Below are positions 34,636-36,990 of a DNA stretch of 64,000 nt, in pieces; position 1 is the stretch's first letter; every line of letters starts with the position of its first letter. Where the stretch lies: contig NZ_WSQA01000014.1 in the NCBI RefSeq assembly GCF_009768885.1, positions 1-64,000 of the forward strand, in the 5' to 3' direction. The notes beneath the pieces were generated by a model. That model ran no database searches. It was not told where the DNA came from and was given only the letters and a program-made list of their open reading frames with translations. The position numbers were made by a program, and so were the translations under genes. The stretch comes from Sphingobacterium humi (GTDB lineage Bacteria > Bacteroidota > Bacteroidia > Sphingobacteriales > Sphingobacteriaceae).

Positions 34636-35889
34636 TTAAATGCCGAAAGCGACTTTTATTTGATCTACGTAGTCTAGTTTTTCCCAGGTAAACAGCTCCA
34701 CTTCCACCGTTTTGCTATCGCCATTTGACGATTCAAAGGTTTTGCTTACTGTTTTCGGGGTTCTGCCCATATGGCCGTAAGCTGCGGTTTCTGAGTAGAT
34801 TGGTTTTCGCAGGCCTAAACGGGTTTCAATTCCGTAAGGGGTCATATCGAAGAGCTCCGTGATGATTGCAGCAATCTCACCGTCGGTTTTGTTGACTTTG
34901 CTAGTTCCGAAGGTATTCACATAGATACCCATTGGATCTTTCACGCCGATGGCGTAAGAAATTTGAACCAATAGTTCGTCGGCAACACCTGCCGCAACAA
35001 GGTTCTTAGCGATATGGCGGGTGGCATAGGCTGCAGAACGGTCCACTTTCGAAGGATCTTTTCCGGAGAAGGCACCACCACCGTGCGCACCTTTACCACC
35101 GTAGGTATCCACGATGATCTTACGTCCTGTTAATCCGGTATCACCATGCGGTCCACCAATTACAAACTTCCCGGTAGGGTTGATGTGGTATTTAATCTGA
35201 TCGTTAAATAAAGCCTGTAGTTCTGGCTTCAACTGAGCTTTTACACGTGGAACCAGGATATTAATAATATCAGCTTTAATTTTCGTTTGCATGTCGGCTT
35301 CGCTTCCGAAGTCATCATGCTGCGTAGAGATAACGATGGTATCAATACGAACCGGCTTGTGGTTATCATCATACTCTAAGGTCACCTGCGATTTAGCATC
35401 CGGGCGTAGGTAGGTGATTTCCTTATTCTCGCGACGTAAGGCGGCTAGTTCATATAATAAACGGTGGGAAAGGTCTAATGCCAGTGGCATGTAGTTTTCT
35501 GTTTCGTTGCTGGCATAGCCGAACATAATACCTTGGTCACCGGCACCTTGCTCTTGTTTCGTTTTCCGATCTACCCCTTGGTTGATGTCGGCCGATTGCT
35601 CGTGAATGGCCGATAGGACCCCACAAGAATTGGCTTCAAACATATACTCCGACTTGGTGTAACCGATGCGCTCGATTACTTGACGGGTAATTTTCTGTAC
35701 ATCAAGGTAGATATTCGATTTAACTTCCCCGGCAAGCACCACTTGACCAGTGGTTACTAGGGTTTCAATTGCAACACGGGCATCTTCGTCCCATGCCAAG
35801 AAATTGTCGATTAATGCGTCCGAAATTTGGTCTGCGATTTTATCAGGATGTCCCTCTGACACAGATTCGGATGTAAATAAATAGGCCAT
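34636..35889 (-). CDS. metK: S-adenosylmethionine synthetase
   Basis: MetK makes S-adenosylmethionine from methionine and ATP. The 417-residue protein has [17 protein letters not shown] at the start, the [12 protein letters not shown] motif, the phosphate-binding [16 protein letters not shown] and [12 protein letters not shown]. Length and motifs are as in active enzymes. Its leader of about 150 bases contains a probable SAM-II riboswitch (35947-36030), so product feedback is likely. It converges with fabD. Confidence 0.97.
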
Positions 35890-35946
35890 ATATATTTAAA
35901 CGAATTGAGGGAAAAGGCGAGCACAGCGAGTGGAAAAACACGGATA

Positions 35947-36030
35947 ATGATAGTTTTAGCACTTTTTTACTGTGGTTGCAATCTCCCATTTACATTAAAA
36001 ATAATGCAAAATGCAAATCAGTCCACATTT
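35947..36030 (-). ncRNA. Probable SAM-II riboswitch in the metK leader
   Basis: The metK leader (minus strand) fits the SAM-II H-type pseudoknot. P1 is UGUGG (36027-36023) with CCACA (35975-35971). The first conserved loop reads CUGAUUUG, the second UUGCAACCAC, and the tail AGUAAAAAAGUGCUAAAAC with the hallmark GCUAAAA. P2 would form between AUUGC and GCUAA, with AG/CU pairs beyond. An extra hairpin (CAUUUUGCAUU / AAUGUAAAUG) is inserted in the first loop. The RNA begins right after the promoter -7 element, 140 bases before the ATG. The family is known mostly from Alphaproteobacteria; the assignment rests on motif matching by eye. Confidence 0.72.
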
Positions 36031-36038
36031 TGTGTGCA

Positions 36039-36046
36039 CAAAGCTA
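36039..36046 (-). promoter_or_regulatory. Promoter -7 element of metK
   Basis: The minus strand reads TAGCTTTG (TAnnTTTG). It puts the transcript start immediately before the SAM-II-like element. No clear -33 box is seen. Confidence 0.5.
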
Positions 36047-36114: not shown

Positions 36115-36990
36115 ATGACAAAAAAGCGCATTCTGTTTGTAGTGAACCCGGTTTCAGGCGGTAAGAAAAAAACAGCATTCAATAAACAAGTGCTGGAAGT
36201 GCTGGATATGAGTCGCTTTGAGCCGACCTTTAAAACCACAAACCATGTAAACCATGCGTACGAATTGGCCCAGCAGGCCATCGAAGAAAAGTATGATGCC
36301 GTGGTTGCCGTGGGGGGAGATGGGACTATTAATGAGATTGGCTCGGCCTTAGCTGGATCCAATACCCCCTTGGGAATTATCCCGGAGGGTTCGGGCAATG
36401 GCTTGGCGCTTTATTTAGGGATTCCGATGAATGAGTCTGCAGCTTTACGCCGGATTAATCGCTTTGAGTCGATTGCGGTAGACTGCGCCCGGGTTGGGGA
36501 ACGCCGCTTTTTTAATATCGCCGGTATTGGCTTCGATGCCTCGGTGAGTGATAAGTTCGCCAATGAAACCTTCCGAGGCCCTGTAGGGTACCTACGTACC
36601 GCTATCAATGTGCTGAGTAAGTATAAGCCTAAGAAATATAAATTGTTGATTGACGGTAAAGAATACGAACGAGAAGCCTTTATGATTTCCGTAGCCAATT
36701 CTCCGCAGTATGGCAACAACGCCTATATCGCCCCAAATGCGTCCATTACAGATGGTATGCTCGATGTTTGTATAGTGCATAAGTTCCCTTTATACAGCTT
36801 ACCTTTAATGTTATTCCATTTGTTCAATAAAACGGCCGACCAATCAGAGTATGTGGAAATCATACCAGGTAAGAAGATCAGCATCTTTCAGGAAGGGAAC
36901 GATCCGGTGCATTTAGATGGGGAACCGAAAGATTTAGGCAACTGTGTTGAAATAGAAGTGATGGAAAAGGCGTTAAATATTATATGTTAA
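36115..36990 (+). CDS. Diacylglycerol kinase-family lipid kinase (YegS/BmrU-like)
   Basis: A 291-residue cytoplasmic lipid kinase of the DAGK_cat family. The N-terminal domain has VVNPVSGGKKK and the nucleotide-binding VAVGGDGTINEIGSAL, then GIIPEGSGNGLALYLGIP. The C-terminal beta-sandwich has FNIAGIGFDASVSDKF and ends with PVHLDGEPKDLG. It could phosphorylate diacylglycerol, ceramide or a sphingoid base; Sphingobacteriaceae make sphingolipids, so the last two are plausible but unproven. It is followed after three bases by the SUI1-type gene. Confidence 0.9.
   Translation: MTKKRILFVVNPVSGGKKKTAFNKQVLEVLDMSRFEPTFKTTNHVNHAYELAQQAIEEKYDAVVAVGGDGTINEIGSALAGSNTPLGIIPEGSGNGLALYLGIPMNESAALRRINRFESIAVDCARVGERRFFNIAGIGFDASVSDKFANETFRGPVGYLRTAINVLSKYKPKKYKLLIDGKEYEREAFMISVANSPQYGNNAYIAPNASITDGMLDVCIVHKFPLYSLPLMLFHLFNKTADQSEYVEIIPGKKISIFQEGNDPVHLDGEPKDLGNCVEIEVMEKALNIIC

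Follow-up and report, generated by a model that had tools for sequence, protein, structure and literature searches.

A SAM-II long-loop aptamer and a candidate anti-aptamer strand in the metK leader of Sphingobacterium humi

The window analysed here is a stretch of 64,000 nucleotides from Sphingobacterium humi, and all coordinates are positions in it. The gene for S-adenosylmethionine synthetase, metK (34636-35889), lies on the minus strand together with its leader and the aptamer described below. It is an open reading frame of 417 aa with the MetK motif GHPDK, begins with an AUG at 35889, and has counterparts in relatives that are 59-92% identical. Divergent from metK is an open reading frame of 291 aa (36115-36990, plus strand); it starts about 70 nt away from the promoter box of metK and, by reading only, looks like a YegS-type lipid kinase.

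Judged by its match to the RF01726 (SAM-II long loop) covariance model, the metK leader carries a SAM-II aptamer, a presumptive SAM-binding RNA. The match runs from 36032 to 35946 on the minus strand and covers the model end to end (1-60 of 60), with a score of 55.6 bits against a curated cut-off of 44 and E values of 6e-8 over the whole window and 1.0e-9 over the whole genome, where the metK-leader match alone exceeds the cut-off and the runner-up reaches 22.9 bits. The P1 helix is formed by UGUGG (36023-36027) and CCACA (35971-35975), of which GUGG and CCAC are invariant in 40 aligned sequences. Downstream of UGUGG lie GAUUUG (36014-36019), which is both a conserved box and the 5' strand of P2a, and GAUUGCAACC (35974-35983), which comprises the 3' strand of P2a, the 5' strand of P2b (UUGCA) and the start of the P1 3' strand. 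The tail UGCUAAAA (35954-35961), in which GUGCUAAA is invariant, would supply the 3' strand of the P2b pseudoknot. The P1 helix and the GAUUUG, GAUUGCAACC and UGCUAAA boxes are thus all present and invariant in the 40 aligned sequences; the invariant P1 core yields no covariation, and the P2b strands, UUGCA and the UGCUAA tail, are both present with an invariance that cannot show pairing.

A preceding sequence-only reading of this leader had recognized the motifs of SAM-II in their order, and all of them are located on the minus strand where it had placed them, within the 55.6-bit match. Loss of the conserved segments in relatives had been named as evidence against the assignment; the carriers keep these segments, invariant in the 40 aligned sequences. 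Two bases described as added before GAUUU belong instead to the RF01726 consensus, against which the alignment shows none added. The Rfam model proposed for the check was also the wrong one: even at E 10, RF00521 (SAM_alpha) finds nothing at the locus, which led to its rejection as the identity of the element, and the right model is RF01726. The overall interpretation of the earlier reading is supported; it had not included the promoter, the anti-aptamer strand or the C-rich platform treated below.

A hairpin had likewise been described within the aptamer, with a stem of about 10 bp; the hairpin is borne out by prediction, whereas its stem is 9 bp and not quite 10. It occupies the P2a loop (35987-36013, minus strand), with predicted stem strands at 36010-36002 and 35997-35989, pair probabilities of 0.44-0.99 and a z of -3.3 for the insert. 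The gap between GAUUUG and GAUUGCAACC is 3-5 nt in several relatives, and 16-39 nt are inserted in Sphingobacterium and many others, although a pattern search that required inserts supplied many of them, so that their frequency is not an unbiased estimate. The stem sequence differs among relatives, and the folding of 68 distinct inserts is stronger than that of shuffled sequences (mean z -1.81; p<=0.05 in 33). Covariation among gapless inserts of equal length is weak to modest, with four double compensations against none when the alignment is slid by one and 35 broken cells, and support for the predicted hairpin comes mainly from the folding z-scores. Variable riboswitch insertions are ordinary stem-loops that leave the core intact, according to Barrick and Breaker (PMC2258182). 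The extra hairpin represents a variable P2a-loop insertion and would act as structural filler on P2a. The hairpin and the spacing had been presented as unusual, but 'long loop' is part of the family's very name, and relatives often carry inserts; the RF01726 consensus has few bases in the P2a loop, compared with the hairpin of about 27 nt here, and the model scores the locus without trouble.

The distribution of the aptamer is wide. An RF01726 match is present in 32 of the 37 genomes of the genus, including that of S. humi, and, at E 0.001, in 382 of 400 genomes and 20 of 22 genera of the order, with 270 above the cut-off. metK lies directly downstream of 110 of 112 motif matches, a count in which a few contigs appear twice; of the two remaining matches, one is at a truncated locus and the other in an unrelated Desulfobacterales sequence. 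Named matches to the long-insert form are mostly Sphingobacterium species. Weinberg et al. 2010 (PMC2864571) list RF01726 under Bacteroidetes and marine sequences, and the S. humi element resembles that family in its full-length match, its phylum and its conserved boxes and their order. The aptamer itself is therefore not novel but of the known RF01726 kind, since it was described in Bacteroidetes in 2010 and is matched in 382 of the 400 genomes of the order; a search of the available literature found no joint treatment of SAM-II and Sphingobacterium. What the present analysis adds to the known aptamer is the expression platform, with its recurring anti-aptamer strand and C-rich leader.

Bacteroidota promoters have TAnnTTTG as their -7 box, and the metK leader carries such a box, TAGCTTTG (36039-36046, minus strand), which ends about 12 nt before P1. 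TAnnTTTG occurs in 90 of 97 metK leaders against 31 of 118 other leaders, its end lies most often 12 nt before the GUGG of P1, and it is retained in relatives without the riboswitch. This frequency and position suggest that the mRNA probably starts at the aptamer, just before P1, as has been reported for SAM-II of alpha-proteobacteria (PMC1273637).

Downstream of the aptamer, the strand GUUUUUCCACUCGCUGUG (35922-35939, minus strand) is predicted to pair with 35974-35953, which contains the P1 3' strand and the P2b tail, with probabilities of 0.83-0.99. In the pseudoknot-free fold, CACAGU (35974-35969) pairs with 35927-35922, the AGUG that begins at 35963 (35963-35960) pairs with CACU (35932-35929), and AAAAC (35957-35953) pairs with GUUUU (35939-35935). 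Because these bases also build the 3' strand of P1 and the tail of P2b, the modelled anti-aptamer stem and the SAM-bound aptamer are mutually exclusive. The duplex energy in the window has a p of 0.003 against 2000 dinucleotide shuffles of the leader. Across 50 non-redundant leaders the anti-aptamer pairing has a mean z of -1.43 (SE 0.19), with p<=0.05 in only 19 leaders taken individually, the 50 being related to each other. Controls with a reversed query (mean z 0.03; 1 of 50 significant) and with unrelated leaders (mean z 0.21; 2 of 50) lack this shift. A control with swapped aptamers is also shifted (mean z -0.91), as expected from the shared core, so that the signal cannot be called strictly pair-specific. 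The platform pairs weakly with the 5' half of the aptamer over the same 50 leaders (mean z -0.36).

The complementary segments differ among genera: GUUUUUCCACUU against AAGUGCUAAAAC in Sphingobacterium, UUUUUUUAC..GCAAUCC against GGAUUGC..GUAAAAA in Mucilaginibacter, and UUUUUAGC against GCUAAAA in Chryseobacterium. Because the genera complement different parts of the same core, the comparison argues for repeated selection of the pairing and not for inheritance of one sequence.

The expression platform (35890-35950, minus strand) is C/U-rich and G-poor. Its C minus G is 0.16, a value reached by less than 1% of unrelated leaders, and the window leader ranks in the top 1% for C over G. C exceeds G in the platform of all 50 leaders, compared with 48% of 118 background leaders (p 4e-17), the latter taken from the window and the retrieved loci; in metK leaders that lack the riboswitch, C over G is less extreme. 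A general riboswitch signature of Bacteroidota was considered and rejected, as TPP and cobalamin leaders from the family are not clearly rich in C over G (p 0.10 and 0.31; n=8 and 9), and in this small sample the feature looks metK-specific. Complementarity to the aptamer could account for part of the C-richness. Without the aptamer, the modelled unpaired fraction of the platform is higher by 0.18; for unrelated leaders fused to these aptamers the corresponding rise is 0.03.

These observations are best accounted for by a SAM-off switch that exerts feedback control on metK through the mutual exclusion of aptamer and anti-aptamer stem, a reading to which a probability of about 70% is assigned and in which SAM binding and the direction of control are inferred. 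Transcription would begin just before P1. At high SAM, P1 and the P2 pseudoknot would be stabilized, the downstream C/U-rich stretch would be single-stranded and metK would be off. At low SAM, 35939-35922 would capture the 3' strand of P1 together with the P2b tail; the aptamer would then come apart, the C/U-rich stretch would be hidden and metK would be expressed. Composition and pairing are consistent with a Rho loading site, in that a C-rich, G-poor stretch would be exposed in the SAM state, and the genome has a rho gene. Among the possible output steps, loading of Rho on the exposed leader is put forward as the likeliest, at somewhat less than even odds, because the modelled accessibility of the start codon is unchanged between states. 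More tentatively, metK SAM-II elements across Bacteroidota may use neither Shine-Dalgarno masking nor an intrinsic terminator, SAM instead blocking an anti-aptamer and exposing a C-rich leader to Rho, with genera having evolved anti-aptamers against different parts of the core.

Direct masking of a Shine-Dalgarno sequence is unlikely, since UGCUAAAA ends 64 nt before the AUG and the ribosomes of Bacteroidia fail to recognize such sequences (PMC9976891, PMC6847099); no ribosome site was found at the locus within or next to the aptamer tail. The earlier suggestion that control here differs from simple Shine-Dalgarno masking is accordingly plausible, the aptamer ending 56 nt before the AUG and the ribosomes being blind to the signal. 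Masking of the start codon by local pairing would be compatible with the need of Bacteroidota initiation for adenines and little structure around the AUG (PMC6847099), with the 48% A of the last 20 nt before the AUG, and with the Sinorhizobium metA SAM-II, which acts on a start 74 nt away (PMC9373788). In the window model, the region from -20 to +12 is less open when the aptamer is bound (0.37 vs 0.53), but the nearer region from -10 to +6 is more open (0.49 vs 0.25). Over the 50 leaders, modelled accessibility of the start region is alike in both states (0.541 vs 0.537) and the direction is inconsistent between genomes. As no consistent difference separates the states, this output was rejected as the preferred one and is considered improbable, with RNA decay or another output making up the rest beside it and Rho.

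An intrinsic terminator, as in many alpha-proteobacterial SAM-II leaders, is a far weaker candidate. Proteobacterial SAM-II aptamers are often followed by terminators (PMC2258182, PMC1273637), but a reading of the 56 nt after the aptamer reveals no G+C-rich hairpin with a U run, and the only strong stem after the aptamer forms in the SAM-free state, which is the wrong sense for metK. The downstream complementarity may alternatively be due to chance or be a by-product of a pyrimidine-rich leader, in which case the pseudoknot alone would act, as a roadblock or RNA-decay switch, for instance. The 31 of 50 leaders that are not individually significant and the shifted swap control are in keeping with that explanation, but dinucleotide shuffles preserve composition, the reversed-query and unrelated-leader controls are flat, and different parts of the core are complemented in different genera, all of which make chance an unlikely source of the pairing.

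RF00521, including the metA SAM-II of alpha-proteobacteria (PMC1273637), shares P1, the P2 pseudoknot and a promoter just before P1; it controls methionine genes, often with terminators or Shine-Dalgarno masking, whereas the gene here is metK and neither device is evident. The metA SAM-II of Sinorhizobium (PMC9373788) likewise has its true start codon tens of nucleotides downstream of the aptamer, but it possesses a Shine-Dalgarno sequence in the aptamer and a terminator, none of which is evident here. In riboswitches that control Rho (Hollands et al. 2012, cited in PMC12121620), the ligand state likewise exposes or hides a Rho-binding leader, as is proposed here; those riboswitches use other aptamers, and Rho action at metK would follow from composition and pairing only.

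Little is known of how riboswitches act in Bacteroidota, with their ribosomes blind to Shine-Dalgarno sequences. This locus offers a clean test case, in that its recurring anti-aptamer strand, its C-rich platform and the natural losses of the element specify which bases to mutate and clearly separate transcriptional from translational control. In several relatives both aptamer and platform are missing, with the promoter kept. In the metK leader L156, from the one-contig genome G004, both are gone and just 23 nt separate the promoter box from the AUG, whereas in L157 (G035) only AAAAATGTGGAC of P1 is left before the distal leader of metK. Because their remains differ, G004 and G035, which belong to the same genus and both retain the promoter box and start codon of metK, look like separate losses. 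The promoter box and a short leader without an RF01726 match are also found in genera g35 (four genomes) and g39 (two genomes). Since metK is normally essential, tolerated loss would fit a repressing element rather than one needed for expression.

Other genomes depart from the typical arrangement in different ways. In G023 the element is at a contig end, and G231, G382, G402 and G398 have degenerate forms or forms missed by the search. In the metK leader of G231 (L229), a sequence containing the palindrome CCCGATAGCTATCGGG stands in place of the upstream part of the core and GCAACCACGTAAAAAAGTGCTAA is kept, as if a repeat element had inserted into the riboswitch. The small, incomplete genome G033 has no SAM-II match, and its metK leader (L159) contains an 8-bp CAGACTAC/GTAGTCTG stem with no meaningful match in Rfam. 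Two TPP riboswitch matches of 122-132 nt fall below the cut-off (G000:C2:52955-53086 and G000:C28:89319-89440), and similar long sub-threshold TPP forms recur across the family, perhaps as an extended variant.
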